From Sulfurivermis fontis (GTDB lineage: Bacteria > Pseudomonadota > Gammaproteobacteria > Thiohalomonadales > Thiohalomonadaceae): a stretch of 64,000 bases of DNA. Position numbers and translations under genes: made by a program. How positions within the stretch are numbered: position 1 is the first letter of the stretch; each line of letters opens with the position of its first letter. Positions 5,426-58,280 of the stretch are shown one piece after another. The notes under the pieces are model-generated. The model saw nothing but the letters and a program-made list of their open reading frames with translations. It made no database searches and was not told the origin of the DNA. The DNA lies in the NCBI RefSeq assembly GCF_004001245.1, contig NZ_AP018724.1:1046501-1110500 (forward strand), written 5' to 3'.

Positions 5426-5430
5426 GTCGT

Positions 5431-5757: not shown

Positions 5758-5763
5758 GTGTAT

Positions 5764-5811: not shown

Positions 5812-5844
5812 GACACGGCCTGACAGACCTTAGATTCCAACGAA

Positions 5845-5874
5845 ACACCCTCTCTCAACCAGGAGGAGGGTGTC
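5845..5874 (+). promoter_or_regulatory. parA leader with hidden ribosome-binding site
   Basis: The bases ACACCCTC (5845-5852) can pair perfectly with GAGGGTGT (5866-5873) just before the parA ATG. The strong GGAGGAGG ribosome-binding site is thereby largely enclosed in the stem. The arrangement resembles the start-site hairpins of the leader family further right, but no pseudoknot module is seen here. Confidence 0.5.
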
Positions 5875-6693: not shown

Positions 6694-6694
6694 C

Positions 6695-8888: not shown

Positions 8889-8891
8889 GCC

Positions 8892-38189: not shown

Positions 38190-38920
38190 TCCTTGCGGTC
38201 GCACTCTACGCCGCATCCGCCGCCTTCGCGGCCGGGGAAGGTTCGCACGCCAGCGACCTGGAGAAGGCGCAGGCGGACGTCGCCGGCAGCCGGGGCGCAG
38301 CCGCTCAGGCTGTCGGCGACGCCACGGCCTTGATGAACGATGGCGAATCGGTCAGGAAGGAAATGCGTCAGGTCATAAACGTGCGGCCGGAATCCCTCGG
38401 CTCCATCGACGGGGTCAGACCGGCGGCGCCTGATATCGACCTTGATGCGCTCATGGCGCGGTACAGCAACATGGGCGCCGCACCTCCACTTTCTCGCACC
38501 GACGAGCAGCTGCTGGTGTTCATTTCGGCGTCGGTGCCCAAGGAGTCCCTGCGCCGATTGGCACGGCAGGCGGCCGACGCCGGCGCGCCGCTCGTGTTGC
38601 GTGGCGTCGTAGGTGGGGATTTTCCTGCGACCGCGGAATTCATGCGCGACATCCTCGGCGAACAGGAGCCGCGGGCCCGCGCAATGATCGATCCGACCCT
38701 GTTTGCCCGATTCGATGTGCAGCAGGTGCCCGCTGTGGTGCTGGTTCCGGCAGGCGCGTGCGTGGCGGGTGTCCGGGCCTGTCCGGAGGCCACGCCTGCC
38801 CACGTTCATGTCGCCGGCGACGTAACGCTCGATTACGCCCTCGACTACATCGCTCGCACTCACCCCGATTCAAGGCCTGTGGCCCATGCGCTGCTCGCCC
38901 GTGTGGGAGGCACTCCATGA
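38171..38920 (+). CDS. trbC: TrbC, F-type pilus-assembly protein
   Basis: A 249-residue secreted protein with a signal peptide (LILAVALYAASAAFA) and the TrbC_Ftype domain, a thioredoxin-like fold without CxxC: LLVFISASVPKESLRRLARQ, GAPLVLRGVVGGDF and VQQVPAVVLVPAGAC. It acts with TraW. The gene overlaps traU by 19 bases and traN by four. Confidence 0.88.
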   Translation: MLRQQLILAVALYAASAAFAAGEGSHASDLEKAQADVAGSRGAAAQAVGDATALMNDGESVRKEMRQVINVRPESLGSIDGVRPAAPDIDLDALMARYSNMGAAPPLSRTDEQLLVFISASVPKESLRRLARQAADAGAPLVLRGVVGGDFPATAEFMRDILGEQEPRARAMIDPTLFARFDVQQVPAVVLVPAGACVAGVRACPEATPAHVHVAGDVTLDYALDYIARTHPDSRPVAHALLARVGGTP

Positions 38921-40032: not shown

Positions 40033-40973
40033 TGAGAACGACACTCTATATCCTGCTTTTGATCGCGAACACGGGTGCGTGGGCGGCAGTCGATTGCCGC
40101 AAGACCGGCGAGGAGTGCGTGGCGCCCAACGAAACACGCATGATCGACGGCATGTCTGTCTTCCGCGAGTGCTGGGAGTACAAGGACACATACGAATGCT
40201 TATCACCCGAGGTGACGGAGGATGGCTACTGCGACGAACTGCGGGCGAGGGGTTGCTCGCAAGTCGGGTCGAAGTGCATCACGTCAACTGACTTCGGCTG
40301 TATGACCTACGAGCAGACATACGAGTGCCCGTCGGACCAGCCGCCGGCCGAACAGGCGGTCCTCGATTGCGGAGGACAGTTGTTCTGCCTGGAAGGCAAC
40401 TGCTTTGATACCAGCTACCCGGCCAACAGCAACATGGGACGCGTCGGCGCCCTGCTGTCCGTACTCGAGGCAGTATCCGACGAACTCGCGATCGACACGA
40501 TGGAAGTGTTCAGGGGCGAAGACCGCCGGTGCGGCATATCCCTGACCGACGCGATCGGGGCGCAGAACTGTTGCCGGCTCTCCGGGTGGGCGGAAGGAGT
40601 GTTCGAGTGCAGCTTCAACGAGAAGCTCCTGGCCGACATGCGTCAGGCCGGCCGGTGTCATCACGTGGGCACCTACTGCTCCAACGAGACCTTCTTTGGC
40701 GTCTGCACGGTCAACACGCAAACGCACTGCTGCTTTGGCTCCAAGCTCGGCCGGATCATCGCCGAACAGGGGCGACCTCAGCTGGGCAAGGGTTGGGGAA
40801 GCGCCCAGGCACCGGATTGCAGCGGCTTCACCATGGATGAAGTCGCATCGCTGGACTTCGAGGCGATGGATCTGTCCGAATTCTATGCCGACGTGCTTGC
40901 GTCGATGCCGACCATCAACCAGGGCGATCTGCAACAGCGCATGACGGATCGCATGAACCAGTTGCTCCCATGA
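40032..40973 (+). CDS. TraN C-terminal-type protein (second of a split pair)
   Basis: A 313-residue Cys-rich secreted protein with its own signal peptide (TLYILLLIANTGAWA). It has about 30 Cys, with typical TraN C-terminal patterns such as CSQVGSKCITSTDFGCMTYE, QNCCRLSGWAEG and THCCFGSKLGRII. It starts at TAATG overlapping the previous stop. Likely an independent subunit that completes TraN; it might instead be a distinct conserved Cys-rich protein of this ICE group. Confidence 0.75.
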   Translation: MRTTLYILLLIANTGAWAAVDCRKTGEECVAPNETRMIDGMSVFRECWEYKDTYECLSPEVTEDGYCDELRARGCSQVGSKCITSTDFGCMTYEQTYECPSDQPPAEQAVLDCGGQLFCLEGNCFDTSYPANSNMGRVGALLSVLEAVSDELAIDTMEVFRGEDRRCGISLTDAIGAQNCCRLSGWAEGVFECSFNEKLLADMRQAGRCHHVGTYCSNETFFGVCTVNTQTHCCFGSKLGRIIAEQGRPQLGKGWGSAQAPDCSGFTMDEVASLDFEAMDLSEFYADVLASMPTINQGDLQQRMTDRMNQLLP

Positions 40974-43199: not shown

Positions 43200-43904
43200 A
43201 TGTCGCGACTTTTGAGGCTTCTTGATGCCACCCCACCCCACTGGGGCGAAAACGTCATCGCGCGGTGGGACAACGACCTCTTCAAACGCCTGGAGCCATT
43301 CGCCACAAGCTACCTATGGACTAACTCTGGCTCACTGAACGTCTTTCGCGTGATCGGTACCGACCACCCCGACTACCAGGGGCAGACGTGGGGCTGGCTG
43401 CTCCGCAATGGCAAGCGGATGATGCTCAATCTGCCACTGCACGAATCGAATCGTGGCTATTACCTGTCGGACGATAAGAAGGAGCCGACCATGTCCTTCA
43501 TCACGACCGACGGTCACGACTGGTACGTGCATTGTGATGGTAACCACCGAACCTGTATCGCCAAGTTCGACTTTCATTACAACGGTCTGTCCGAGATGCG
43601 CGGCCTGTCGCTCCACGACTGGCGTTTCGACCACGACCTGTTCGGCGCCATGTCGCGGCTGCACGAGCTGGTAACCGATCGCCGGCTACCCGTCCGCCTC
43701 GAAGTGACACGGGCTACCGTGTCGCGGGAAGACAATCCAGGCTGGATGCGGGAGGTTTACCGGCCCGCGATCGATATCCACCGCGAGGGGGGCGTTTACC
43801 GCGTTGACGCGGCTGCGGCGCGCCGCGTAATTGGCTGGTTGGAAGGGCCCTGGTTTGCGCGGTTGTTCCGCGCATGGCCGGTCGGGCATATGCAGGAGAA
43901 GTAA
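43200..43904 (+). CDS. Hypothetical protein with ParB/Srx-like motif
   Basis: A 234-residue protein between traH and traG, in the same operon. The centre reads HDWYVHCDGNHRTCIAKFDF, which resembles the nucleotide-binding GNHR/GxHR motif of ParB/sulfiredoxin folds; no helix-turn-helix is evident. No signal peptide is visible, so it should be cytosolic, unlike its neighbours. It is not a standard F-type transfer gene. It may be an ICE-specific regulator or DNA-processing protein. Confidence 0.6.
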   Translation: MSRLLRLLDATPPHWGENVIARWDNDLFKRLEPFATSYLWTNSGSLNVFRVIGTDHPDYQGQTWGWLLRNGKRMMLNLPLHESNRGYYLSDDKKEPTMSFITTDGHDWYVHCDGNHRTCIAKFDFHYNGLSEMRGLSLHDWRFDHDLFGAMSRLHELVTDRRLPVRLEVTRATVSREDNPGWMREVYRPAIDIHREGGVYRVDAAAARRVIGWLEGPWFARLFRAWPVGHMQEK

Positions 43905-43908
43905 CGAA

Positions 43909-46884
43909 ATGCCGGTCTGGGAGATATACACCTACGGAAACGGCGAGTTTCTGTCCTTTATCTTCAACGGAATTGTCGCCTTGATGGGCGATGGCAATTT
44001 CACCACGTTGATGCGCCTCGCCAGCATCTTTGGTCTGTTCTGGGTCTCGATTAAGGCCGCATTGTACCGCGGCCCGGTGGAGTGGACCTACCTGATCTGG
44101 TTTGTACTCATCTACAGCGTTTTGTTCGTGCCCAAGGTCGATGTGGTCATCGTGGATCGGTTGGACCCCAGCCAGACCCGCGTCGTCGCCAATGTGCCGT
44201 GGGGGTTGGGCACCTTCGCCGGCGCGACGGCGAGAATCGGCGATTGGTTCACCCGGGGCACTGAGGCAGTCATGAGCCAGCCTGACGATCTTAAATACCA
44301 CCGGAACGGCGTGGTGTTCGGGTCAAGCCTCGTTGAAGCGGCATCGCAGTACGCGATCACTGACGGGCGTTTCGCCGGCAACATGAGCGAATTCATGCGG
44401 CAGTGCGTGTTTTACGACATTCTTCTCCGGCGCTACACGTGGACGGATATTCTCGAGGCGGAGGACACCTGGGAGTTCGTCAAAAAAAACACGGCGTCCG
44501 CCTCGCGCGCATTTGCCTACACGGCCGCCGACGGATCACAGTCTATTCTGCCGTGTCAGACGGGCGCGGTTTCACCCAGCGCGTTGCAGGGCGACTGGGA
44601 TGCGGAGGTCGCGCGCGCGGCGAAGCTCTACGGCAAGCGGTTCAACCCCGGCCTGAATATGACGGATGCCGCGGCCAAACTCATGGCCGATCTTCCAATG
44701 AGCTACGACTACCTGGCCGGAATCTCCAAGTCCGGTGGTGACATAATCCGCCAGAACATGATGGCCAACGTGTTCCGCCGCTCGTTTACAAATGCGGCCG
44801 CGGCCGCCGATGCCGGCGCTGCCGCGCAGGACTTCGCCCTTGCCCAGGCGGAGCAACAGCAACTGGCGACATACCAGACGCTGGGAAAGCTCGCCGGCAA
44901 GCTGCTGCCCATGCTCAAGAACATTTACGAGGGGCTGCTCTACGGGATGTTCCCGTTCCTGTTCCTGGTATTCATGTTGCCGATCGGTACCAAGGTGTTC
45001 CTCACGTATCTCAAGAACATCGTCTGGTTGCAGCTCTGGGCGCCCTTGTACGCGATCCTCAATCTCCTCATGACCCTCGGTGCCAAGCACTTTTCCATGG
45101 CGGCCGCTGCGCAGCTCGGCGGGCAGGCCCTGTCCCTGGCCACGCACTCGGGACTGGCGGCCGTCAACGTCGAGACATCGGTTATTGCCGGGTACATCGG
45201 CATCTCCATCCCGCTCATCGCCTACGGGCTGGTGTCGGGCGGCCAGATGGCGCTGACGCAGCTTGCCTCGCAGGTGGCGTCCGTGGCCCAGAGCGCCGCG
45301 AGCCAGGCGGGCAGCACCGCTGCCACGGGCAACATCAACCTAGCCAATCTCGGCGCGTACAACACCGGGATGTTCAAAAGCGACACCAACGCACTGACGA
45401 ACTACGGTCAGGGCAAATACAACGATTCCTATGGAGCGAGTCATGACTGGAGCCGGGGCGGTGTCCATGGTCAGACCAACCTCAAGACCGACGTAGGCGT
45501 CTCAGCCGAGCTCGCTGAGACGCTTCAGGCCGCAAAGAAACAGTCGCTGTCCGAACTGGACCAGGCAGCGCAAACTGCCGGTCATAGGTATGCGGAGGGC
45601 TTGGCCGCCAATCTGGGCAAGGCTCTTGATCTGACCCGCACAACCGGCTGGGGCACAACAAAGACCGACGGCTGGAGTCAGCAGGACGCGACGGCGTACA
45701 AGGAAATGTCCGAGCACGTGCAGCAGTTGATTCATAAACTCGCAGATGGCGAGACTTTCTCGCAGAAACAGGCGGAAGAAATTGTACTCAAGGCGTACAC
45801 GGAGGCGTATGCCAGCGCCTCGGCGAGCGGTAAATTTGATGTCGGTGTGTTTAAGGCCGAACTCAAAACTGGACTCGAAGCTGGACTACGCGCCGAGGGC
45901 AGCCACAAAGAAGCAGACGAAATTGCACGAACGGCCAGCGCCGTCGCCGAGAGCGCCGACGCTGATGTCATCCGGCGCGGCGTAGAGGCGCTCCGGAACT
46001 ACGCATCCAGCACGACTGTCCAGAACACCGAGCGGGGCAGCAACGATCTCGGCGCCGCACTCCGCTCCGACCTGCAGGATACGGCGATGCACGAAAAGAA
46101 CTGGCAGGATGCACGCACCAGGCTCACCGCCGCGCAGGAGGAATGGTCCAAGGTGACGGCCGACAGCCAGTCGATCAGCGCCAATGTGATCCCAGAACTC
46201 ATCGATGACTTGCGACGCTCAGGTCACTCGCAGGTGGCGAGCCTGACATCGGATCCCACCCGCAGCCGCGAGCTCGCTCAGGTACTAGGCCTAGCAGCAA
46301 AGCTGAAGTTTGGCGATCGCGTCGATGGCATCGAAGCGGCACGCACGGCGATCGAATCGGTTACCAACCCGACCTATGGCCAGATAGGTTTTGCGATGGG
46401 CCAGCGGGCTGAAACGACGGCGAAGGTAGACAACCGTGATGAGGCTGTGGACCAGGCGGACCGCGAAAACCGCCACACTGTCGCCGGCGAGGGCGCCGTG
46501 CGCCGCGCCGCGGCTGGCAATGAGCATACTGTGTTGCACAAACCACTGAGTGCCCACAGCCCCTATGCCGGCGCGGCGGCACTGGGCCTCGACCCGGACA
46601 AACTCGGACAGGTGCCCCTGACCGATCGGAAGGACCTGACAGCGTTCAAGGATCGTGTCGTGGAAGAAACCGATCACGAGACAGGCAAGGGGACAACCAC
46701 CGTTTCGGCTGACGAGAAAAAGCTACAGGAGCAAACCGCGGCGGCGACGGGCGACGTGGAGGGCAGGATTGCCGACGGGAAGAGGAACACGGAGGGCTTC
46801 ACACCTGCTGCCTTGAAGCCGCCCGCGTTAGCTCCAGACTCGGAGACGGAGCCGCCTGAGAACTCTGGCGGGAAAGGTTGGTAA
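43909..46884 (+). CDS. traG: TraG, mating-pair stabilisation protein
   Basis: A 991-residue protein. The N-terminal TraG domain has several membrane helices (residues about 30-120 and 345-480, e.g. FPFLFLVFMLPIGTKVFLTY) and the start PVWEIYTYGNGEFLSFIFNG typical of the family. The C-terminal 450 residues are hydrophilic and helical. TraG is needed for pilus assembly and, through its C-terminal part, mating-pair stabilisation or exclusion. Last gene of the transfer operon. Confidence 0.92.
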   Translation: MPVWEIYTYGNGEFLSFIFNGIVALMGDGNFTTLMRLASIFGLFWVSIKAALYRGPVEWTYLIWFVLIYSVLFVPKVDVVIVDRLDPSQTRVVANVPWGLGTFAGATARIGDWFTRGTEAVMSQPDDLKYHRNGVVFGSSLVEAASQYAITDGRFAGNMSEFMRQCVFYDILLRRYTWTDILEAEDTWEFVKKNTASASRAFAYTAADGSQSILPCQTGAVSPSALQGDWDAEVARAAKLYGKRFNPGLNMTDAAAKLMADLPMSYDYLAGISKSGGDIIRQNMMANVFRRSFTNAAAAADAGAAAQDFALAQAEQQQLATYQTLGKLAGKLLPMLKNIYEGLLYGMFPFLFLVFMLPIGTKVFLTYLKNIVWLQLWAPLYAILNLLMTLGAKHFSMAAAAQLGGQALSLATHSGLAAVNVETSVIAGYIGISIPLIAYGLVSGGQMALTQLASQVASVAQSAASQAGSTAATGNINLANLGAYNTGMFKSDTNALTNYGQGKYNDSYGASHDWSRGGVHGQTNLKTDVGVSAELAETLQAAKKQSLSELDQAAQTAGHRYAEGLAANLGKALDLTRTTGWGTTKTDGWSQQDATAYKEMSEHVQQLIHKLADGETFSQKQAEEIVLKAYTEAYASASASGKFDVGVFKAELKTGLEAGLRAEGSHKEADEIARTASAVAESADADVIRRGVEALRNYASSTTVQNTERGSNDLGAALRSDLQDTAMHEKNWQDARTRLTAAQEEWSKVTADSQSISANVIPELIDDLRRSGHSQVASLTSDPTRSRELAQVLGLAAKLKFGDRVDGIEAARTAIESVTNPTYGQIGFAMGQRAETTAKVDNRDEAVDQADRENRHTVAGEGAVRRAAAGNEHTVLHKPLSAHSPYAGAAALGLDPDKLGQVPLTDRKDLTAFKDRVVEETDHETGKGTTTVSADEKKLQEQTAAATGDVEGRIADGKRNTEGFTPAALKPPALAPDSETEPPENSGGKGW

Positions 46885-47792: not shown

Positions 47793-47816
47793 TCTTGCGA
47801 ACTATAATTCGCAAGA
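47793..47816. promoter_or_regulatory. Operator of the XRE-ImmA gene overlapping its -10 box
   Basis: TCTTGCGAA (47793-47801) and TTCGCAAGA (47808-47816) form a perfect inverted repeat that encloses TATAAT (47803-47808). A third CGCAAG half-site lies at about 47783. A repressor bound here would block the promoter, so autoregulation by the downstream XRE protein is likely. The -35 region is weak. Confidence 0.65.
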
Positions 47817-47848
47817 CTAGAATACCGTCCCTTAGTGGGGGTACTGCC

Positions 47849-48970
47849 ATGTCTGAACGCCTGTCGCAAAAACTGATCGGCTACCGCGTCAAAGCCGCTC
47901 GTGAGGCGCTCGCCTGGACCCAGGATCGCCTGGCCGAGACCCTGGGGCTGAACGACCGCCAGAGCATCTCGGACATCGAGAACGGCAAACGCGCTCTGAA
48001 ACCCGACGAGCTGGTCCTGTTGACCGACGTCCTGGGTCGGGAAATCGAGTTCTTCCTCGATCCGTTCTCCGTCGCCGGCGAGGCCCAGTTTTCCTGGCGC
48101 GCCTCGCCGGGCCTGGACGAGGGCAATCTGGACGGCTTCGAACACCGGGCTGGGCAATGGATCGGCCTGCTTCGCTGGCTCCGCGAAAGCGAGCAAGGTC
48201 GGGCGAACCCCCTCAAGCACAGTCTGCGCCTGACTTCCCAGTCCTCGTTCGAGGACGCGATCGCACGGGCCGAGGATCTGGTCGACGCCCTGGACCTCGG
48301 CGCAATTCCGGCCGAACGCCTGATCGAGCGGGTGGAGCAGGCCCTGGATATTCCTGTGCTCTTCGTCGATACGATCGAAACCCCGGAAGGAAACTCGATT
48401 TCGGGGGCGACCTGTCACCTGCAGGACCTCGGGGTGATTCTGGTAAATCGCAACGAGTCGGAGGCCCGGCGGTTCTATGACCTGGCGCACGAGCTGTTTC
48501 ACGCGCTGACCTGGGATGCCATGAAGCCGGACCACCGCGAGTCCAATTCAGTCGAAGACCGGGCCAAGGGCAAGCGCATCGAGCAGCTCGCAAACAATTT
48601 TGCGGCCGCCCTGCTGATGCCAGGCAAGGCCCTGGAGCAACTGATCGATCGGCGGCGTATCGGTGACGTTGCGCACCTGGCGGAGGTCGCCGCGCAACTG
48701 CGCGTCGCCCCGGTATCCCTGGCATGGCGGCTGTTCAACATGAAGTGGATCGACGAGGCCGCCCGGGAAGCGCTCAAGCACGAGCACCAGCGTCCGTCCG
48801 TTGCCGGCACACCCAAGCGTTTCTCGCCAGCCTTCGTTGGTATGCTCCACAACGCGATCGACCGGGGCCGGCTCTCCGCCCGCAAGGCGGCCAAGGCCAT
48901 GGGCATGAACCTGTCGCAGCTGGTCGACCTGTTCGCCGAGCACTCGCTCGCCGCGCCATTCGAGTTGTGA
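47849..48970 (+). CDS. XRE-family regulator fused to ImmA/IrrE-type peptidase
   Basis: A 373-residue fusion: an N-terminal helix-turn-helix (KLIGYRVKAAREALAWTQDR, then TLGLNDRQSISDIENGKRAL) and a COG2856/DUF955 zinc-peptidase domain with FYDLAHELFHALTW (HExxH) and a following NNFAAALLMPG. ImmA-type peptidases cleave repressors in response to signals, and fusions like this often act as self-regulated switches for ICE, phage or toxin-antitoxin genes. It has a symmetrical operator at its promoter and a PIN-domain gene 13 bases downstream. Confidence 0.88.
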   Translation: MSERLSQKLIGYRVKAAREALAWTQDRLAETLGLNDRQSISDIENGKRALKPDELVLLTDVLGREIEFFLDPFSVAGEAQFSWRASPGLDEGNLDGFEHRAGQWIGLLRWLRESEQGRANPLKHSLRLTSQSSFEDAIARAEDLVDALDLGAIPAERLIERVEQALDIPVLFVDTIETPEGNSISGATCHLQDLGVILVNRNESEARRFYDLAHELFHALTWDAMKPDHRESNSVEDRAKGKRIEQLANNFAAALLMPGKALEQLIDRRRIGDVAHLAEVAAQLRVAPVSLAWRLFNMKWIDEAAREALKHEHQRPSVAGTPKRFSPAFVGMLHNAIDRGRLSARKAAKAMGMNLSQLVDLFAEHSLAAPFEL

Positions 48971-48983
48971 GAGCGCGGACGGC

Positions 48984-49505
48984 ATGGCGAAGCCCCGGGT
49001 CTTCATAGACACGAACATCATCATTGAAGCGTTCCGCAGGGGCTGCTGGACGGCAATCTGCAACAGCTTCGTTATCGAGACGGTCGACAAGTGCGTCGAA
49101 GAGGCATTGACCGGGAATCCGGACGATCCTGGGCGCGTTCATATAGACCGGGATCTGCTGGTCGGCGGTTTGGCTGCGCGCCACGCCGTCGGGAAGCGTG
49201 AGCTTGCGACCCTCGCCCTCTCTCATCCCGAATGCCAGGGCCTCGATGACGGCGAACTGCACCTGCTCGCCTGGCTGCACGCGAACGGTCTGCTACCCGG
49301 CGCCTTGATCCTTGTTTCGACGGCCGACAAGGCGGCTATCGTGGCCACCGGCCGGCTCGGATGGCTCGACTCGCTCACGTCTCTCGAGCATCTGGCCCAG
49401 CAATCAGGGGTGACCCGTGGACAGGTTGACAGTCTGGCCCGCCATTACCGGGCGGGCTGGCTGGATGAGATCAGAGTGAAGGTCCGCCTGGGCATCATCC
49501 CTTAG
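48984..49505 (+). CDS. PIN-domain-like protein
   Basis: A 173-residue protein beginning KPRVFIDTNIIIEAFRRG, the first conserved Asp of PIN nucleases; further acidic residues lie in CVEEAL and LDDGELHLLAW, and the last conserved position in LVSTADKAAI. PIN domains are RNA nucleases and common toxins. It follows the XRE-ImmA gene by 13 bases, so the pair could be a toxin-antitoxin or stress-response unit; no such assignment is proven here. Confidence 0.75.
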   Translation: MAKPRVFIDTNIIIEAFRRGCWTAICNSFVIETVDKCVEEALTGNPDDPGRVHIDRDLLVGGLAARHAVGKRELATLALSHPECQGLDDGELHLLAWLHANGLLPGALILVSTADKAAIVATGRLGWLDSLTSLEHLAQQSGVTRGQVDSLARHYRAGWLDEIRVKVRLGIIP

Positions 49506-49529: not shown

Positions 49530-49901
49530 ATGAGCATCCTGCAAGAGATTCATAGCTGGTCGCGGCAAGCCTGCACGAAGGCCTCACGCAAGCCTCTCTC
49601 CACCCGAATACGCATCCCAGAGTCTTTGAGTGACATAATTACAAAATACCACGTGGATACACAGATGTGTATCCATTCCACATCGGCAAGCCCGAGATAC
49701 CCACACGAATCTAAAGAGCCCAAATGGCTCCATTCCAAGGGAAGGGGTAGTAACGGGAAGGGGCTTATCCGAAAGGGCTGGCGCAACGCCACAGGGGCGC
49801 TGCTTCAAAGGGGGGGCGGGAGAAAAAGGACTCTCGCCTCTAAGCACGCCGGCCGAACAGCGCCGGGTTGTTGGTTTTCGGATAGTCCAGTCCGTCGCTA
49901 A
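49530..49901 (+). pseudogene. Truncated gene, possibly an ATPase N-terminus
   Basis: The frame starts MSILQEIHSWSRQ with a good GGAGAAGC ribosome-binding site. This start resembles the first residues of a family of large ICE or defence AAA ATPases (ILQEIxxWS). After about 15 residues the sequence turns into low-quality coding text (repeated basic and Ser-rich stretches) and runs into the Dam gene from the other side. I read it as a leftover 5' end of a gene replaced by the downstream cassette. Confidence 0.35.
49655..49674. promoter_or_regulatory. 20-bp palindrome
   Basis: GGATACACA and TGTGTATCC flank a two-base centre. It lies in an AT-rich non-coding stretch between the PIN gene and the Dam gene. 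It may be an operator of a lost gene or of the cargo; no clear promoter is seen. Confidence 0.35.
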
Positions 49902-50700
49902 AAAACATCAATTCGCCGCCATTCCGTTTCGTTTGCGCGCTGTAGCTGAGGGTGTACCGTATCTTTCGCCGCTCCTTGTACAGTTTTGCGATTTCTGGCG
50001 CATCGTCGTAAGACACGATCCAATGCGTCCGCAGTTTCTGCTGCACCAGCTGAGCAATTCTGGCGTGGTCGGCCTCTGCATAATGATTGCGGTACAGCCG
50101 TTGAGCTTTGTTGAAATACGGCGGGTCGAGGTACACCAACGACCGTTTTGGGAATTTGGCGGCTTTAATAAAATCCTCAGCATCGAGGTTCGTTAATTGG
50201 ATGTGATGCTTGTGATCTTCAATTCGCTGCAACCGTTCAGCGATGCCGTCGCGATTGAACCTGGCGTCGATTAACCATTTGCCGGTCTGATCCAGACCAC
50301 CAATAACGCCGCCCCCAAGTATTCCAGAACGGTTGGTCCGGTTCAGAAACAGCGTCGCAAACGCCAGAGCAAGTCGTTTCTTCCGGCCTGGCCCAAGGTA
50401 GATTTCACGCTGCTTTTGCCACTCCTCAATGGTGAGCGGCACGTTGTGAACCATTTCGATCAGCGCTTGCGTCTCATTCAGGGCACAGTGCCAAAACGCG
50501 TGAATCGCCGGATCAATGTCATTCAGCCACACTTCCTTGGCGTAGCCGGTCATCACCAGCTCTAGCGCGATGCCAGCACCCCCTGCGTAGGGCTCTACGT
50601 AAACTCCGTCACACAGGTCGTTATCGACAAACACCTGACGAACAAATGGGGCAAGTTTTCCTTTCCCGCCCGGGTACCGCAATGGGGTGTAATAGCGCAT
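49840..50700 (-). CDS. Dam-family DNA adenine methyltransferase
   Basis: A 286-residue D12-class N6-adenine methyltransferase. The SAM-binding start is PLRYPGGKGKLAPFV with VEPYAGGAGIALELV, and the catalytic motif is SLVYLDPPYFN. Codon use and a higher AT content than neighbouring genes suggest later acquisition. No cognate restriction enzyme is obvious; it sits downstream of, and on the same strand as, a ParB-domain protein 54 bases away, so the two probably form a unit. Confidence 0.9.
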   Translation of the reverse strand: MRYYTPLRYPGGKGKLAPFVRQVFVDNDLCDGVYVEPYAGGAGIALELVMTGYAKEVWLNDIDPAIHAFWHCALNETQALIEMVHNVPLTIEEWQKQREIYLGPGRKKRLALAFATLFLNRTNRSGILGGGVIGGLDQTGKWLIDARFNRDGIAERLQRIEDHKHHIQLTNLDAEDFIKAAKFPKRSLVYLDPPYFNKAQRLYRNHYAEADHARIAQLVQQKLRTHWIVSYDDAPEIAKLYKERRKIRYTLSYSAQTKRNGGELMFFSDGLDYPKTNNPALFGRRA

Positions 50701-50754
50701 CGGTGGCCTCCGTGCCTGCGAGGATAAGACAAATCTGATTTGACGGCCACCACT

Positions 50755-52089
50755 TCATTTCAGATGGGCATAGAGGATATCCAGGAACGACTGGACGTTG
50801 TCCCAGGCCGTCGCCAAATCGGGACCGGTTGGGTGGAAATGGCGGTTGTGCACGTAGGCATTGAAGGTATTGAACGAGAGCGGATTGTGCGGGCTGGCGA
50901 TCGCCGCCTTGATCCCTTTCAACTCGTGTTTGCTGGCCCATTTCTGCTGGTCCATGTGCGCAGCTGCTTTTTCGGCCTTCTTGGACAGGTTGTCTCCGTC
51001 GTTATATGCAACCGAATTGTGGTCCAGATAGAGCTCGATACTCAGCTCGACGAATACGCGGAAAAGTACGGACACCGCATTGCGGTAATCATTAAGTTCG
51101 AGATCCCGCAATTCGTGAAAGATTGCCCGTAGCCGCGTGTCCTTGATCGAATACTGAACGCCAGCCGGCACCAAGTACTTGCGTTGGTGCGAAGGACGGG
51201 GACCGCGCAGTTTCGATTGCACCTGGGAGGGCTGCGCAGGGGGTACCATCGGCCGGGAGTCCTTCACCTCCCGTTGTTGATTTGGCGTATGCTCCGGCGG
51301 GAAGCCATTGATGTATTCCCTTTGTTTTGCGGCATCGTAAACCTTTCCGACCGCCATCCCGTCCGCAATGTCCCGCAATACCTTGGTCAACCCCTTAAGC
51401 ACTTCGGATTCGTGAAGAAATCGCCGGGGGACACCGTCGGCACTGGCAATTCCAAGGAAATCGCGGACCTCGGGATTCTTGAGAAGGCGATCAAGCGTCG
51501 ATATCTTGAACCCCTTCCCAGTGACCTTGGCCTTCAGATCATCATCCAGCTTGTCCAGGATGGAATCGACGACTGCGTGGCTGAAAGCGTAACGCCCTTT
51601 CTTTCCGAGACGCTGCAGATGTCTGCTTTTCTGCATGGCGTCCCAGGGAAGGGTTCCGACGCCATCTTGAGGCCCCTGATGGCGCAGTTCGATCCACTGG
51701 TCTGCTTCTTCGACAGAATCCGCGACGACGAACTCTATCTTGCGAGGGATATTCACTTTAGCCTGACCGCGAATCGCCGCAAACTTGCGACGCAACTTGG
51801 GATCGGAGCAGCGATCCGGGTTGTCGAGCAACTTGAGGGCGGTGATCCGCCGATTCCCCTCCCACACGATGTAATCGCCTTTGGTGTTGGGATCAGGCAA
51901 CGCAAGCATGCCATCCAAGGGGCTCAGACCGCGCTCGGCGATATCCGTGGCGAGATTCCGAATCTCATCGCCGAGATGCTCAAGCATCCACGCAATGCAG
52001 TCGGGCTCGGAAGGCAAGGGACCGTGCCGGTCGTTTTCCTTGTTCAACCGGAGACGGGCTAGCGGGATGTCGAGTCGCTCGTAAGGCAT
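50755..52089 (-). CDS. ParB-domain protein with a separate C-terminal helical domain
   Basis: A 444-residue protein. The N-terminal ParB/Srx domain has LDIPLARLRLNKENDRHGPL and DYIVWEGNRRITALKLL, the expected GNRR nucleotide-binding motif. A helical middle part and a linker with many Pro residues follow. The C-terminal 120 residues (AVSVLFRVFVELSIELYL, then FNTFNAYVHNRHFHPTGPDL) look like a helical domain, perhaps HEPN-like. Paired with the Dam gene, it may be a defence or anti-restriction cassette; this is inference. The start is the ATG at 52089. Confidence 0.72.
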   Translation of the reverse strand: MPYERLDIPLARLRLNKENDRHGPLPSEPDCIAWMLEHLGDEIRNLATDIAERGLSPLDGMLALPDPNTKGDYIVWEGNRRITALKLLDNPDRCSDPKLRRKFAAIRGQAKVNIPRKIEFVVADSVEEADQWIELRHQGPQDGVGTLPWDAMQKSRHLQRLGKKGRYAFSHAVVDSILDKLDDDLKAKVTGKGFKISTLDRLLKNPEVRDFLGIASADGVPRRFLHESEVLKGLTKVLRDIADGMAVGKVYDAAKQREYINGFPPEHTPNQQREVKDSRPMVPPAQPSQVQSKLRGPRPSHQRKYLVPAGVQYSIKDTRLRAIFHELRDLELNDYRNAVSVLFRVFVELSIELYLDHNSVAYNDGDNLSKKAEKAAAHMDQQKWASKHELKGIKAAIASPHNPLSFNTFNAYVHNRHFHPTGPDLATAWDNVQSFLDILYAHLK

Positions 52090-52114
52090 CAGAGTTCCTT
52101 TTCGTGTGCTTGAA

Positions 52115-52152
52115 CGGACGCAATAATTCCACCCACAATTCGTCCGAATTAT
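52115..52152. promoter_or_regulatory. Interleaved inverted repeats between divergent genes
   Basis: CGGACG/CGTCCG (52115-52120 and 52141-52146) and ATAATTC/GAATTAT (52123-52129 and 52146-52152) overlap in the 103-base gap between the ParB-domain gene and traI. This AT-rich spot is a likely control point for one or both divergent genes. Confidence 0.4.
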
Positions 52153-52192
52153 CCCTAGACCGGCCCCGGTTGCCAAGGAACCATGCGGCCCC

Positions 52193-54031
52193 ATGCTTGG
52201 CCGCCTATTCCGTCGCGACAGTCCCCGTGTCGATGCTCCGTCCCCGGACGGGCGCTTTTCGATCGACCCACCGGAGGTCCTGCTGGCCCCCCACGCCCGC
52301 GTAATCGCCTCGATTCGTGGAATGACGGGCGTGCCGGATACGCATTGGGCCGCGTTGTACAGCCCCCTTTTCGGAGCGCTTGCCCGGTTCGTGCAGCAAC
52401 TGCCGGCATCCGAGGCGCATCATCACGCCGCGCCGGGGGGCCTCCTGCGCCACGCACTGGAGGTCGCGCTCGAGGCCATGAAGCTCCGCCGCGGTGCCCT
52501 GCTGCCACCCGGCGCGTCCGCCGAAGAGCTCGCCCGCCTCCAGGACGTCTGGTCGTATGCCTGCGTCACGGCGGCTCTCCTGCACGACATCGGCAAACCG
52601 CTCGCCGACCAGCGCGTAACGCTGTTCAGTCCTGACCACGCGTCGATCGGGTTTTGGAGCCCGGTTGACGGCCCGATGCCGCCCCCGGCGCGGTACTACC
52701 GCGTCGAGTTCGTGACCAAGCGCCGTTACCGGCGGCACGAGCGGCTCGCGCCCCTGCTGGCCGGCCACATCGTCCCGGCCCAGGGCCTCCGCTGGCTCGC
52801 CGACGAACCCGAGGTGATGGACGCCTGGCTCGCGGCCCTGCAGGGCGAATACGAGGCAGCAGGCCCGCTCGGCGCCATCGTGGCCAAGGCGGATGGCCTC
52901 TCGGTCGCGCGGGACCTGTCCGGCGGCGGAAAGGTGCAGCTGCCCACCGCGCGGACAAGGCCACTGTCCGAACGTCTGATTACCGCGCTGCGGTATTTAC
53001 TTGCCCGCGACGAGCTTCCCCTCAACCGCCGCGGCGCCGCCGGCTTCCTCGCCGGCGACGATTTGTGGCTGGTCTCCAAGAGGGTGCTCGACGCCCTGCG
53101 CGAGCAACTCGCGCGCGAAGGCCAGACGGGTGTTCCCTCGCGCAATGACCGCCTGATGGACGAGCTGCAACAGCACGGCCTGCTCATTCCCAACGAAGAC
53201 CACGCGATATGGACCTGCGAGGTGCGCATCGGCGACTGGACGCAACGCCTCACGCTGCTGCGCATGGAGGCCTCGGCGATATGGTCAAACCCGGAACGCC
53301 GGCCGGTTCCTCTCGACGGTACCGTGATACCGGTGGCCGGAGCCCCTGAGGACGGGGCGGATGCTGACGCCGCCGGCGAAACCGCCGCGGAGCCCTGCAC
53401 GGCCGCGCCGGAGACGAATCGGGCCACGCGGAATGCGCCGCAGGAGAGCGCCGGGCATCCGGCGGAACCTGGTAGCGCCCAAGGCTACGACGATCTCCCA
53501 CTGCCCTACGACATCGAGGCGCCCGGAGGAGGGACGGCAATTCCATCGACTGAGCCCTCCGCGGGCAACCGACATCACGCCGGTGAGGCCTCGGTCGGAA
53601 GCACGCCGCAAGACGACGAGGACGAGGATGCAGGCAGGCGCTTCGTTGCCTGGCTCAAAGACAACATCGCCAGCGGCCGGGTGGAGATCAACACGGTCAA
53701 TGCCCGCCTGCATGTCCTGCCCCAGGGCCTGGCCCTGATCTCGCCGGGCATCTTCCGCGACTTCGACTCGGTGCGCTGGGACAAGGCGCAGAAGCGCTTC
53801 CAGAAGATGAAGCTGCACCTCAAACGCCCGGACGGCACCAACATCTGGACCTGCCGCGTGGCCAAGGACCGCAAGCAGTCGCGCATCAAGGTCATGCTGA
53901 TCCCCGAACCCGAAAGTGCGCTCGGTGTGAAGCTGCCCCCGCCCAACCCCGCGGTAACCCTGCTGACAGAGAACGGCGGCGAGACCGCAAAAGACTCCGA
54001 GAAAAAGGTGGGTGATGGCCAGGTTGTTTGA
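52193..54031 (+). CDS. traI: TraI, MobH-class relaxase
   Basis: A 612-residue TraI_2/MobH relaxase. The N-terminal domain contains the histidine signature EAHHHAAPGGLLRHALEVALE and HD-like VTAALLHDIGKPLADQ, the hallmark of MobH enzymes. A disordered linker (about residues 365-475) leads to the TraI_2 C-terminal winged domain (GRRFVAWLKDNIASGRVEIN to WTCRVAKDRKQ). It nicks oriT and leads the transferred strand. The end overlaps traD by 17 bases. Confidence 0.93.
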   Translation: MLGRLFRRDSPRVDAPSPDGRFSIDPPEVLLAPHARVIASIRGMTGVPDTHWAALYSPLFGALARFVQQLPASEAHHHAAPGGLLRHALEVALEAMKLRRGALLPPGASAEELARLQDVWSYACVTAALLHDIGKPLADQRVTLFSPDHASIGFWSPVDGPMPPPARYYRVEFVTKRRYRRHERLAPLLAGHIVPAQGLRWLADEPEVMDAWLAALQGEYEAAGPLGAIVAKADGLSVARDLSGGGKVQLPTARTRPLSERLITALRYLLARDELPLNRRGAAGFLAGDDLWLVSKRVLDALREQLAREGQTGVPSRNDRLMDELQQHGLLIPNEDHAIWTCEVRIGDWTQRLTLLRMEASAIWSNPERRPVPLDGTVIPVAGAPEDGADADAAGETAAEPCTAAPETNRATRNAPQESAGHPAEPGSAQGYDDLPLPYDIEAPGGGTAIPSTEPSAGNRHHAGEASVGSTPQDDEDEDAGRRFVAWLKDNIASGRVEINTVNARLHVLPQGLALISPGIFRDFDSVRWDKAQKRFQKMKLHLKRPDGTNIWTCRVAKDRKQSRIKVMLIPEPESALGVKLPPPNPAVTLLTENGGETAKDSEKKVGDGQVV

Positions 54032-56045
54032 CAACCGGCTGCGGCCGGCCGTTGAGTTTCTGCCGGCGACGGTGCTGACGGGCTTGGCCGGCACCCTGGT
54101 CACCCAACCGGACAACATCGCTCCATTGATGCCTGGCGTAGCCACGGCGACGGCCGGGCTGTTCGCGGCTGCCGCGGCGTGGCGCACCGTACAAGGAGCG
54201 CGCGTGCTCGCCTACCGATCGCGCCTGCGGCGCCTGCCACGTTATGTACTTCGCGGTGACCAGATACCTTGGTCCTCGACCAGGCTGTTCCTGGGTCGCG
54301 GTTTCCGGTGGGACCAGCGCCACAGCCAGCGCTTGGTTGAGGCCCGTAATCCGGAAGCACGCAAGTATCTGGAACCGAGCTCCGCTTACCGGTTGGTGCG
54401 AGCCCTCGAGCTGAAGTGGGAACGACAGCGGCTCCTGCGCCGCTTGTCCCGGTACACGCAGGCCGACGCATGGTGGAACCCGGTGCGGCCACTGCCGCCC
54501 GTGGGGGGTGACTCTGCACTGCATGGCGTGGGTCTTGAAGACGAAGAGGATAGCTGGCTGCCCCTCGATGAACGCCAGGGCCACTTGCTGGTAATGGGCA
54601 CCACGGGTGTCGGCAAGACCCGCCTTGCAGAGCTGCTGGTGGCCCAGGACATCCGCCGCGGCGACGTGGTCATCGTTGTCGATCCGAAAGGCGATCTGGA
54701 TTTGCTGCGGCGGATGTTCGCCGAGGCAAAGCGAGCCGGCAAACTCGACAAGTTCCATATCTTCCACCTGGGGTTCGCGGAAATCAGCGAGCGCTACAAC
54801 CCGGTGGGCGAGTTCGCACGCATCACTGAGGTGGCAACCCGGACAACCGCACCGCTGCCGAACGAAGGTAACTCAGCCGCTTTCAAGGAATTCGCCTGGC
54901 GGTTCTCCAACGCCGTGGCCCAGGCCCTGGTCGGGCTGGGCCGCAAACCCGATCTCAAGTCTCTCGGTCGCTACGTCACTCATATCGAGCCATTGCTGGT
55001 CGACTACTTCAAGCTGTGGCTGGACGCACACGGACCTGAGGACTGGCGCCAGACGGTGGATCGCATGGTGGCGGACGAGGACTTTCCGAAGCGGCTGCCG
55101 ACAGCGCTGAAGAGCCGCGATCGCTACGCTGCGGCACTGGTGACTTTCTACAAAGAGCGCAACCTCTACGACCCGGTCTGCGACGGTCTGAAGAGCACCT
55201 TCGAATACGACAAGACCTACTTCGACAAGCTGACCGCGAGCCTGCTGCCGCTCATCGAGAAACTGACGTCGGGGCGCGTTGGCGAGCTGATCGCCCCCGA
55301 CTACGAAGACGCCAACGACCACCGCCCCATCCTCGAATGGAGCAAGGTGATCCGGGAGGGGGGCATCGTTTATGTCGGGCTCGATGCGCTCTCCGACCCA
55401 GAGGTGGCGCATGCCGTCGGCAATGCAATGTTGGCCGACCTGACCTCCATTGCCGGCCGCCTGTACAAGCACGGTCATGCCCACGGCCTGCCGGGCGATC
55501 CGGGCCGCCCCCCGGTCATCAACCTCCACCTCGACGAGTTCAATGAAATCGTCGGCGACGAGTTTATCCCGCTGGTCAACAAAGCCCGCGGCGCCGGCTT
55601 CCGGGTTACCGCGTATACGCAGACCGGTACAGACGTTGAGGCTGGAATCGGCGACCGGGCAAAAGCAGGCCAGATCTTCGGCAACTTCAATAACCGGATC
55701 ATGCTGCGCGTTGTTCATCCGGACACCGCCTGCCTGCTCACCGACCAGCTCCCCAAGGTGCGCGTCTACACCAAGGTCGCGGAAAGCCGCACTACCGACA
55801 ATAACGACCCCAACAGTCCGGTCGATTTCACCTCACAAAACGCCGATCGCCTTACCGAAACGGAAGTGGAGATGCTCACCCCGGCCGACCTGGTGAGTCT
55901 GCCCAAGGGGCAGGCCTTTGCTCTCATCGAGGGCGGTCGGCTCTACAAGCTCCGCCTGCCGCTCGCGGGCGACGATCCGCTGTTGCCCAGGGACATGATC
56001 CAGATCGCGGCCTGGGCCGATGAACGCTATCGGATGGCTGCATGA
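54015..56045 (+). CDS. traD: TraD, type IV coupling protein (SXT/TOL type)
   Basis: A 676-residue coupling ATPase. An N-terminal membrane segment (about residues 20-60, TVLTGLAGTLV and LFAAAAAWRTV) precedes Walker A VMGTTGVGKTRLAELL, then VVIVVDPKGDLDLLRRMFA, and Walker B NLHLDEFNEIVGDEFIPL. The C-terminal YTQTGTDVEAGIGDRAKAGQ stretch is typical of the SXT/TOL TraD family. It brings the relaxosome to the channel. A GTG at 54012 is an alternative start. Confidence 0.93.
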   Translation: MARLFDNRLRPAVEFLPATVLTGLAGTLVTQPDNIAPLMPGVATATAGLFAAAAAWRTVQGARVLAYRSRLRRLPRYVLRGDQIPWSSTRLFLGRGFRWDQRHSQRLVEARNPEARKYLEPSSAYRLVRALELKWERQRLLRRLSRYTQADAWWNPVRPLPPVGGDSALHGVGLEDEEDSWLPLDERQGHLLVMGTTGVGKTRLAELLVAQDIRRGDVVIVVDPKGDLDLLRRMFAEAKRAGKLDKFHIFHLGFAEISERYNPVGEFARITEVATRTTAPLPNEGNSAAFKEFAWRFSNAVAQALVGLGRKPDLKSLGRYVTHIEPLLVDYFKLWLDAHGPEDWRQTVDRMVADEDFPKRLPTALKSRDRYAAALVTFYKERNLYDPVCDGLKSTFEYDKTYFDKLTASLLPLIEKLTSGRVGELIAPDYEDANDHRPILEWSKVIREGGIVYVGLDALSDPEVAHAVGNAMLADLTSIAGRLYKHGHAHGLPGDPGRPPVINLHLDEFNEIVGDEFIPLVNKARGAGFRVTAYTQTGTDVEAGIGDRAKAGQIFGNFNNRIMLRVVHPDTACLLTDQLPKVRVYTKVAESRTTDNNDPNSPVDFTSQNADRLTETEVEMLTPADLVSLPKGQAFALIEGGRLYKLRLPLAGDDPLLPRDMIQIAAWADERYRMAA

Positions 56046-56710
56046 GAGAACGTCGCACGGGGTTGGTGGCGCTGGTTCTGTGGACGGGACTGCTCATCCT
56101 GCTCACGCTGTTTCTGCACTTCGTCTATGCCGTCTGGCCGTGGCCTGACGCACCGCGCGGTGCAGCGCCGCTACGCGAGGCGGTTGTGACGGAGCGTGCA
56201 CGTGTCGAGAAACTGGCGTCGGCATCTTCCGTCGGCATGATCAGCACGGCAATTGAATGGACCTACCGCATCGGTTTCGAGTGGACCGGCATGGATTACC
56301 TTATGCGCTCGGCAATGGAGCAGGCGCCGCGCGGGGGAACCGACGAAATCGGCCGGCGCACGGCCGCAGCCACCTGGACGCTCCTTGAACCCCTCTACTG
56401 GAGCGTGCAACTCACAGGGCTTCGCCTCGGCGTCCTCTTTGCGTCGCTCCCGCTTTTCCTGGTAGCCGCGATTGGCGGTGCCGCAGACGGCGCCGCGGCC
56501 TGGTATCTGCGGCGTGTTGGCGTGGGCCGCGAATCAGGTTTCATCTACCACCGGGCAAAACTCGCCTTTTGGACAGCGCTGTTCGCGCTCTGGGCGGTTT
56601 ACCTGCTGCCTCCTGTTGCTCTCGACCCGATGACGGTTATCCCGCCGTTCGTTGCACTGTTCGGGCTCACCGTGCGCATCGCAGTGAGCTGGTTCAAGAA
56701 GTACCTCTAA
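56042..56710 (+). CDS. DUF4400 ICE membrane protein
   Basis: A 222-residue membrane protein recognised as the DUF4400/TIGR03747-type ICE family by position after traD and by its layout: an N-terminal membrane helix (LVALVLWTGLLILLTLFLHFVY), a soluble loop with IEWTYRIGFEWTGMDYLM, and three C-terminal helices (GLRLGVLFASLPLFLVAAIG, FWTALFALWAVYLLPPVALD, VIPPFVALFGLTVRI). It overlaps the traD stop by four bases. The function is unknown, presumably in transfer. Confidence 0.82.
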   Translation: MRERRTGLVALVLWTGLLILLTLFLHFVYAVWPWPDAPRGAAPLREAVVTERARVEKLASASSVGMISTAIEWTYRIGFEWTGMDYLMRSAMEQAPRGGTDEIGRRTAAATWTLLEPLYWSVQLTGLRLGVLFASLPLFLVAAIGGAADGAAAWYLRRVGVGRESGFIYHRAKLAFWTALFALWAVYLLPPVALDPMTVIPPFVALFGLTVRIAVSWFKKYL

Positions 56711-56790
56711 GGATGTCGCCCTCCTCGCCGCCCCTAAGATCGCCCTCGTCTTATACGGAGACGGAAACAAAAGCAAAAAAGGAGAACGAC

Positions 56791-57714
56791 ATGCAAGCTG
56801 CGGAGAAACTGCAATTTACGGCTATGGAGCATTTGCTCCAATCCTACCTGCTCGAGAACCTGGTACGCCCTGCGACAGCCAGGACTTACGAGCAGGCGGT
56901 CCGACGTTGGACTGAGGAAACGGGGATGTCGTGCATCGAGGCCATTACCCGCGATGATGTCTTGAAGTGGCGCAATGACATCCTCTCCCGTGCCCGCCCT
57001 GAGACCTGGAACAAATACCGGCGCCATCTTCGGGCGCTGTTCAATTACGCGGTATCCCGCGGCTGGTTAGGCACAAACATCTTTTCCGCCGTTCCGCCCG
57101 CGCGCGCGGGAACGCGCCTGAAGAAAACGGTCGATGTCGATGTTGTGCGCAAGGCTCTCGTCTTTCTCGACGACGAGGACGAAAGTCTGCGGCCGGGATG
57201 GTTCTGGGCCATGGTCGTGCGCGCGATCTACTTCACCGGCGTCCGCCGACGGCAGATAGTCGAGCTGCGCTGGGGCGACGTGAACCTGGACGCTGGCACC
57301 TGGCGGATACGCGCAGAAACGTGCAAGACGCACCGGGAATGGTTTCTGCCATTGGTGCCCCAAGTGGTTGAAGACCTCACCGAACTCTACCGGCGCACCT
57401 GTGAACGCCTTAAGGGGAAACCAGGAAAGCACTACCAGGTGTACAACGTGTCGCTCTTCTACCCGCGCTACAAAGGGCCGGAGTTGAAGGAGGATCAGAT
57501 CGGCGGATTCTTCCACCGGCTGTCAGAGGCGCTGGAGGAACCGATCACCTCGCATCGCCTGCGTCACACCATGGCCACGATGCTTGCGGTGCACGGCGAT
57601 ATCCGCACGCTGCAGGAGATCCTGGGGCACACGAATCTGAGTACGACGATGGTGTACGTGCATCCGGACGTGGAGCGGATGCGATCGTTGATGGCACGGT
57701 TACCCAACTTGTAA
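56791..57714 (+). CDS. int: Tyrosine recombinase (ICE integrase)
   Basis: A 307-residue tyrosine recombinase of XerC/D size. A SAM-like N-terminal core-binding domain (LLENLVRPATARTYEQAVRR) precedes the catalytic domain: Arg in FTGVRRRQIVEL (about residue 152), Lys in CKTHREWF, HxxR in SHRLRHTM, His in ILGHTN and Tyr in TTMVYVHP (about residue 289). It catalyses integration and excision at att sites. The ATG at 56791 has an AAAAAAGGAGAAC ribosome-binding site. It is the last ICE gene, 200 bp from ssrA. Confidence 0.92.
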   Translation: MQAAEKLQFTAMEHLLQSYLLENLVRPATARTYEQAVRRWTEETGMSCIEAITRDDVLKWRNDILSRARPETWNKYRRHLRALFNYAVSRGWLGTNIFSAVPPARAGTRLKKTVDVDVVRKALVFLDDEDESLRPGWFWAMVVRAIYFTGVRRRQIVELRWGDVNLDAGTWRIRAETCKTHREWFLPLVPQVVEDLTELYRRTCERLKGKPGKHYQVYNVSLFYPRYKGPELKEDQIGGFFHRLSEALEEPITSHRLRHTMATMLAVHGDIRTLQEILGHTNLSTTMVYVHPDVERMRSLMARLPNL

Positions 57715-57809
57715 CCGACTAATAATTGTGGTAAATGTCGCTGACGTATTACCGGGAGTGGTGTTTCGCGGGAACGCGAAGGTCTGTCCCCGTCGATGCG
57801 GCAAGACAT

Positions 57810-57851
57810 CCGAAAAGAAACCGGGAGGTTGGTATGCGCCCAACCTCCCGG
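57810..57851 (-). terminator. Rho-independent terminator facing from ssrA
   Basis: On the minus strand CCGGGAGGTTGG pairs perfectly over 12 bp with CCAACCTCCCGG around a seven-base loop, followed by TTTCTTTT. It lies about 70 bases after the tmRNA 3' end and probably terminates ssrA. On the + strand the hairpin could also stop integrase transcription, with a weaker tail. Confidence 0.75.
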
Positions 57852-57918
57852 AATTTCACGTATTACCGAGGGTGTCTTGCCTCTGATCCCTGGTTCGGGT
57901 GGGACGTTGTCCCAAAAA

Positions 57919-58280
57919 TGGTGGAGGCGGCGGGAATCGAACCCGCGTCCGCAAGCCCTCTGCCATCGGCTCTACATGCTTATCCACGCCTATTGGTTTA
58001 ACCGGCTGCTACCCGACGGGCAGGGAAGACAGACGGCGAGTCCGGTAAGGTATTAGCGACGCGGCCCCGAACGAACCTTGTCGCGATCCTGTGAGAGTCG
58101 ACCCCCGATTACGGACGCACAGGCACGGCTCCGGTCGGAGGGCACCCTACTGGGTTTTAAGCAGCGAGTGCGTAGTTGTCGTCGTTGGCAACTATTTGGT
58201 TTGCAGCGTGTTTTACGAGGTCACCGCACCTCGGCATGCACCTCCGGTTTCGCAACCCACGTCGAAGCCAGGTCGCCCCC
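57919..58280 (-). ncRNA. ssrA: tmRNA (ssrA)
   Basis: The minus strand shows a one-piece tmRNA: the 5' end GGGGGCGACCTGGCTTCGAC pairs with the 3' CGCCTCCACCA end as tRNA-like acceptor stem, and the T-arm GGGTTCGATTCCCGC is present. The resume region encodes the tag ANDDNYALAA followed by TAA. Total length is about 362 nt with encoded CCA. With SmpB it rescues stalled ribosomes. Its 3' end is a frequent integration target, but no second copy of it is found at the left ICE end. Confidence 0.93.

Follow-up and report, generated by a model that had tools for sequence, protein, structure and literature searches.

A gene pair of the PD-lambda-5 phage-defence family in a conjugative element of Sulfurivermis fontis: predicted architecture and a proposed mode of action

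A stretch of 64,000 nucleotides from Sulfurivermis fontis (assembly GCF_004001245.1, contig NZ_AP018724.1, positions 1,046,501 to 1,110,500), hereafter the window, carries an integrative conjugative element in which two adjoining genes, A and B, are read against the transfer genes. A first-pass annotation, made from the sequence alone, described a Dam-like methylase (B) paired with a ParB-domain protein (A) and conceived of them as a modification-sensing nuclease in which the ParB-domain protein is the effector. The locus raises the question of what a methylase and a ParB-like protein accomplish together when no restriction enzyme is encoded with them. The pair belongs, with near certainty, to PD-lambda-5, an already-known phage-defence system, so that the earlier guess at a defence function was well founded; the observation is confirmed, and the interpretation placed on it is partly supported.

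The assignment comes from PADLOC, both of whose models are matched nearly end to end. The product of A corresponds to PD-Lambda-5_A (PDLC03998; E value 1.8e-124) over residues 6–440 of 444, and that of B to PD-Lambda-5_B (PDLC04018; E value 4.7e-117) over residues 1–278 of 286. According to the text of Vassallo et al. 2022 (PMC9519451), PD-lambda-5 was obtained in that year by functional selection in E. coli and protects against phages; it altered plating or plaque size for all but one of ten phages, with a stronger effect on T-even phages than on lambda-vir, in a test host without the mrr-containing region. An enrichment of the system in a single hotspot of PAPI-1 islands is also described (PMC12629846). 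Phage protection is thus published for the E. coli system, and for the copy in the window it is predicted from family membership.

The product of B is a D12-class N6-adenine (m6A) DNA methyltransferase (PF02086; E value 8.3e-19) with the motifs EPYAGG and DPPY. Because the match to the ‘dam’ model TIGR00571 (E value 4.7e-16) lies below the cut-off of that model, the term Dam-like is right for the class only and implies no known target site. Across 118 sequences, EP.AGG and DPPY are conserved in 90% or more, which indicates that catalysis is under selection.

The association of the two genes was followed in 160 loci, namely the best 80 of 192 relatives in viral contigs and the best 80 of at least 295 in genomes, some near-identical copies included. 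The loci were found with a pattern containing GNRR, the genome scan was built on a closer set of six sequences, and a viral scan with the single A protein returned no relative. B lies beside A in 153 of the 160 loci (77/80 viral-contig, 76/80 genome), so the rare co-occurrence that would have told against the pairing is not borne out. In three viral exceptions (L063, L086 and L103) A reaches the contig end, in three genomic ones (L166, L181 and L187) it ends at most 2 bases from it, and in the seventh (L189) a short A frame ends 105 bases before it. After removal of redundancy (A below 70% identity), B is present in 117 of 119 relatives. The order is A then B in all 153 pairs, 144 of which are tandem and 9 convergent; thus, the linkage survives a change of transcription unit. 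From the A frame to the stop-to-stop frame of B the median distance is 6 nt, and the largest gap is 1.9 kb (L173). At that locus (4986-8974) A itself is split into two frames 0.75 kb apart. In another relative (L260, 4394-7345) a frame that by eye resembles a transposase parts two ParB pieces. The divergence of B follows that of the three regions of A (r 0.40, 0.46 and 0.54 over 117 loci; the maximum in 200 permutations each was 0.12).

Over 108 non-redundant loci (2777 flanking frames, families named by eye), 7 is the highest number of loci in which any flanking gene family recurs. With no recurrent third gene, a separate restriction enzyme does not regularly belong to the system, as the first-pass annotation had noted for the pair itself. 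One of the four families tied at the top count of 7/108 is an AAA ATPase-like gene (by eye), which follows the pair at L146 5083-6657.

By record title, the hosts are Bacteroidota, Chloroflexota, Acidobacteriota, Actinomycetota, Bacillota, Pseudomonadota and archaea, and the pair is also found in viral contigs and in prophage-like regions of E. coli. Of 369 genomes belonging to the class, 18 contain a match to the A model, and the 12 with an E value below 1e-20 all carry B; for four weak matches (G126, G154, G182 and G259; E values 9e-4 to 3e-13) B was not found within their short loci. An E. coli pair of the family occurs in 22 of 5426 genomes, with the R and H residues discussed below kept, and in two records it is flanked by a replication-endonuclease gene and a portal gene. 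This pair may differ from the one tested in PMC9519451. The window's copy, for its part, is on a conjugative element, and its A protein is 20–33% identical to 51 relatives from viral contigs.

The A protein has no match in Pfam (E value up to 1) or NCBIfam (up to 0.1), and PDB sequence searches gave nothing significant (best E values 0.31 and 0.085). Among its 52 relatives, ParB_N is matched weakly by seven (best E value 0.0024), GmrSD_N (PF03235) by two (best 0.089) and a Csm6 HEPN model by one (0.061). An AlphaFold2 model built on 52 sequences (predicted local distance difference test score, pLDDT, 92.2) divides the protein into a ParB-CTPase fold at about residues 1–160, a mostly helical middle, a low-confidence linker (286–297) and a C-terminal HEPN domain (311–444). 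Over residues 3–145 the model matches ParB bound to CDP or CTP with Z of about 10 (7bm8_A: Z 10.1, root-mean-square deviation 2.1, 98 aligned residues), and residues 1–160 match sulfiredoxin and SspE more weakly (SspE Z 4.9). The phosphate-binding box GNRR is at 78–81. Its conservation in the pattern-found loci is partly by construction, the independent set being the 12 members found without the GNRR pattern, in all of which G78, N79, R80 and R81 are invariant. The model thus indicates a ParB-CTPase fold with a phosphate-binding arginine box, and nucleotide binding is predicted.

The first-pass annotation had suggested a separate, perhaps HEPN-like, C-terminal domain, and structure prediction agrees with it. 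Modelled alone, residues 311–444 give pLDDT 94.8 and a predicted template modelling score (pTM) of 0.88. In VIA comparisons the matches include 4nqf (Z 9.8), 2hsb (9.5), AbiA (9.2), HepT (8.9), the sacsin HEPN domain (8.7) and Csm6 (6.7). Among the 25 top rows (Z 9.8 to 6.6), titles or literature identify 19 as HEPN, and six have uninformative titles (2q00, 2jpu, 1wty, 1ufb, 1jog and 3mfn); a de novo design follows in row 26 at Z 5.5. A HEPN helical fold is therefore supported for the modelled domain. Conservation was followed over 120 sequences below 70% identity: 116 of the 117 that are ungapped at the position keep H414, 114 of the 120 keep R344, and all 120 have E or D at position 348. H414 lies at the end of the penultimate helix, the position of the HEPN motif according to Anantharaman et al. 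2013 (PMC3710099). The modelled domain, with its near-invariant His, does not lack a candidate nuclease-like site, whose absence would have spoken against the earlier proposal. The HEPN assignment is not claimed as new here, because HEPN-like motifs are reported for six of the 21 systems of Vassallo et al. and the text (PMC9519451) does not state which six. The domain table of Mariano and Blower gives HEPN for PD-T4-2, PD-T4-5, PD-T7-3 and ApeA, and not for PD-lambda-5 (PMC10952713).

On these grounds we favour, at a probability of roughly one half, a reading in which host DNA carries a self mark placed by B and in which A, on sensing phage DNA that is unmarked or disturbed, fires a HEPN RNase, i.e., a combination of restriction-modification and abortive infection. 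B, a methylase of the N6-adenine class by sequence, would place its mark constitutively on the target sites of the resident genome. A would survey DNA by means of its nucleotide-binding ParB fold and middle region, and would shift its state on DNA that is unmarked or whose marks are disturbed. The two C-terminal HEPN domains of an A dimer might then form an active RNase using H414, R344 and E348, which would halt translation and abort the infection. Self-marking of the restriction-modification kind would in this way be coupled to a suicide RNase in place of a restriction enzyme. Such self-marking with HEPN firing fits the published description of PD-lambda-5 as ‘RM+Abi’. The choice of a host without the mrr region in the published work, for which the text gives no reason, suggests that the product of B is perhaps recognised by Mrr and that B does mark self, and Mrr_cat has no match in the genome from which the window comes. 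The effector of the pair is most likely A. This part of the earlier interpretation stands; the effector activity predicted is that of a HEPN RNase and not of a DNA nuclease.

Several results weigh against this proposal. At the level of the fold, the VIA Z scores of 9–10 are under the level of about 13 that the tool regards as safe for helical bundles, Foldseek by itself gave no significant match to the isolated domain (best E value 0.76), and a profile-profile comparison against HepT-like HEPN domains also fell short of significance (probability 0.2%), its sole local match placing N410-A-Y-V-H414 on the N-x3-H of HepT; the HEPN assignment thus rests on structure. At the level of the active site, the canonical Rx4-6H is absent, as no conserved Arg stands 5–7 residues before H414; the conserved R344 and the acidic residue 348 lie in the second helix instead. 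With the motif Arg missing, RNase activity of A is not to be assumed from the model. HEPN families that keep the His and lose the motif Arg are on record, one of them having other conserved basic residues as possible replacements (PMC3710099), and for this reason the missing Arg lowers the claim of RNase activity and not that of the fold. Position 344 is W in 6 of the 120 sequences. The pTM of 0.63 for full-length A leaves the relative placement of its domains loose, and sensing by A is something that we infer. Finally, the absence of Mrr is weak evidence, since a close mrr is found in only 941 of 5426 E. coli genomes.

A sub-group of A (L087, L089, L091, L092, L093 and L108) has W in place of R344 and a C-terminus that aligns differently and is in some members of KHH type. 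This sub-group possibly carries another effector domain.

A different division of labour, which we consider unlikely but the best of the alternatives, is a toxin-antitoxin system acting by contact: binding of B would keep A inactive, methylation would be secondary, and shut-off of the host by a phage would free A. A partner restrains a HEPN toxin in HepT/MntA, as described in PMC7641770, and A and B are close together (54 bases apart in the window; median 6 nt) and co-diverge. The retention of EP.AGG and DPPY in B is difficult to reconcile with a secondary role of methylation, and in the 9 of 153 pairs that are convergent the expression of the two genes is uncoupled.

Somewhat less probable again is that the ParB-fold domain is itself the effector, by nucleotide depletion or DNA nicking, and that the HEPN domain serves only for dimerisation or RNA binding. 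Effector roles are discussed in PMC12839542 and PMC10853773 for ParB/Srx proteins that act as nucleases or NTPases, and A has the invariant GNRR together with a HEPN motif without its Arg. On the other hand, H414 and R344 are near-invariant although the rest of their domain is poorly conserved, a pattern typical of catalytic sites, and ParB relatives that have no HEPN domain accompany separate candidate nucleases, as if in need of an effector.

These relatives include gp98 of phage Wphi, which resembles A in its ParB region (PDLC04013; E value 3.2e-24 over gp98 residues 45–195) and has the candidate model PDC-M38A as its best PADLOC match (E value 9.2e-25). Of 29 loci, 28 contain ParB-like gp98 along with gp96 and the cytosine methylase Mth, and the remaining one is cut short; the B methylase profile, run on the same 29 loci as a control, gave zero matches. 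We regard gp98-gp96-Mth as a candidate three-gene defence system related to PD-lambda-5. The gp96 protein is not named by Pfam or PADLOC models (the sole Pfam match is unrelated; E value 0.25) and has a conserved signature DGGLD...QC, which by eye resembles a PD-(D/E)XK site; from this motif, gp96 may be the effector nuclease of the Wphi set. An identification of gp96 as Mrr was considered, since its first profile touched the Mrr_cat gene of L261 at 3.9e-4, and was dropped when the E value became 0.047 after two members were added.

Other relatives combine the same parts. In one (L258, 3903-6839), a B-type adenine methylase and a relative of gp96 (E value 2.4e-12) accompany an A-like ParB protein, another (L259) has the Wphi arrangement with a methylase named by eye, and a third (L261, 3115-4983) has an A-like ParB gene beside a Mrr_cat gene (PF04471; E value 5e-13), with no methylase found in that stretch by the B profile. 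Together with the Wphi set, they suggest one ParB sensor with exchangeable effectors across the relatives. As a tentative extension, which we hold to be possible though doubtful, the self/non-self reader would be a ParB-type nucleoside triphosphate (NTP) clamp that loads on unmarked DNA and whose nucleotide-driven dimer closure switches on the exchangeable effector, be it a fused HEPN RNase or a separate gp96- or Mrr-type nuclease, in company with adenine or cytosine methylases. If this is true, it would amount to sliding-clamp sensing of unmethylated DNA coupled to RNA cleavage.

The first-pass annotation had modification-sensing in mind, and in its type IV form A would attack DNA or abort infection on meeting B-type methylation on foreign DNA. 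Sensors of ParB/Srx fold are described for GmrSD (PMC10952713) and SspE, the latter also being the weak fold match of A noted above. This form is improbable if B modifies the host genome, as the published mrr-less host suggests: with B beside A in 153 of 160 loci, self is probably marked and A would fire on self. Least probable of all is that the pair, a ParB-like protein with an orphan Dam, serves the element in partition or gene regulation, for, although A has a ParB fold and is located on a conjugative element, the pair occurs in viral contigs, E. coli prophage-like regions and many phyla, and the E. coli system of the same family protects against phages.

Self-marking with an RNase thus remains the reading that we favour, and it can be set beside known systems. 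With type II restriction-modification the pair shares a methylase able to mark self DNA; the difference is that a cognate restriction endonuclease gene was not found in A/B or regularly near it (108 loci). A shares its N-terminal fold and phosphate-binding box (GNRR in A) with the ParB-family CTPases Noc, ParB and KorB. In the main text of the survey of ParB-CTPase fusions by Kaljevic et al. 2025 (PMC12704722), the terms ‘HEPN’, ‘PD-lambda’ and ‘GNRR’ are absent. The Wphi set shares with the pair the ParB region and the company of a DNA methylase, and it differs in having no HEPN domain, a methylase of cytosine type and the extra protein gp96. All three of ParB fold, methylase and HEPN appear in the table of Anantharaman et al. 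2013 (PMC3710099), which predates PD-lambda-5, under the MAE_28990 operon type and the ParB-HEPN fusion Saro_3948. Compared by description, the HEPN protein of the MAE_28990 type is in an operon with ParB and methylase genes, whereas the HEPN domain of A is fused to ParB. PD-lambda-5 is annotated in many genomes, and a worked-out mechanism was not met in the portions of the literature on the system that were covered. Its anatomy, i.e., a ParB fold, a HEPN domain with a shifted Arg, a methylase and an apparent exchange of effectors, provides a model that can be tested at the level of residues and links PD-lambda-5 to the gene neighbourhoods listed in 2013.

An F-type (MobH) integrative conjugative element carries the pair as cargo, with traG on one side and traI on the other (Table 1); the first-pass annotation had spoken of a cargo slot. 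The gene order is TraC, TraU, TrbC, TraN, TraF, TraH, TraG, the cargo region, TraI, TraD and a tyrosine recombinase. All nine transfer genes named, traC to traD, are on the plus strand, and the pair, both of whose open reading frames are complete, is on the minus strand, as had been noted. Its lower G+C content also holds: at 55.6%, against 62.6% for the whole window, A/B is the window's lowest stretch, and none of 1145 segments of 2250 bases (step 50, none overlapping the pair) is as low.

Table 1. Features of the locus and of the related Wphi set (positions in the window unless a locus is named)
Feature	Position	Strand	Basis or remark
Gene A, PD-Lambda-5_A	50755..52089	-	ATG at 52089, stop at 50755; 444 amino acids; complete open reading frame
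Gene B, PD-Lambda-5_B	49840..50700	-	ATG at 50700, stop at 49840; 286 amino acids; complete open reading frame
HEPN-coding part of A (residues 311-444), predicted effector domain	50758..51159	-	Domain model
Stub of a small regulator-like gene, 28 codons	49550..49636	-	Landmark of the cargo slot, outside the A/B system
MobH relaxase TraI (TraI_2)	52193..54031	+	Right-hand border of the cargo slot; NF041494, E value 1.3e-107; PF07514
TraG	43831..46884	+	Left-hand border of the cargo slot; PF07916, E value 3e-100
TraC	33103-35730	+	Transfer gene
TraU	36960-38189	+	Transfer gene
TraD	54012-56045	+	Transfer gene
Tyrosine recombinase	56569-57714		Adjoins the tmRNA gene
tmRNA gene	57919-58280		
gp98-gp96-Mth set	L004 96-3266 (phage Wphi); L115-L142		

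The neighbours of A/B in the window are traI and a toxin-antitoxin-like pair (47795-49505, plus strand). The latter consists of a gene for a helix-turn-helix and M78/IrrE-type peptidase protein (47795-48970), followed by a frame (48984-49505) whose product has a PIN-domain-like start by eye and no match in Pfam, NCBIfam or PADLOC. The truncated gene beside which A and B had been placed is present as the 28-codon stub, which is covered by a DNA match (77.9%) with the gene encoding a 62-residue ‘plasmid-related protein’ of a P. aeruginosa plasmid (compared by eye). Since it sits between B and the toxin-antitoxin-like pair, it marks that junction and not the A/B pair alone.

In a genome of the same genus (G016), whose A is 99% identical, the pair is again beside traI, and DNA similarity spans window positions 49713 to 57894. 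The toxin-antitoxin-like region, adjacent to A/B in the window, is there about 52 kb away on the same contig in the same orientation; the traG-traI space is therefore variable. In G016 the cargo slot is larger by about 52 kb (contig C1, about 135821-187751, partly contained in L113), and the frames near A/B presumably resemble genes for phosphonate use.

The tmRNA gene probably provides the attachment site of the element at its recombinase-proximal 3' end; a second copy of its last 20 bases is absent from the window at up to 4 mismatches. TraN (38758-40973, plus strand) is matched in two overlapping open reading frames in different frames, the first corresponding to its N-terminal and the second to its C-terminal part. 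TraN may be frame-disrupted, and the element may then be non-transferring. Downstream of the element, an ISL3-family transposase is encoded on the minus strand (62040-63278; NF033550, E value 1.9e-99).

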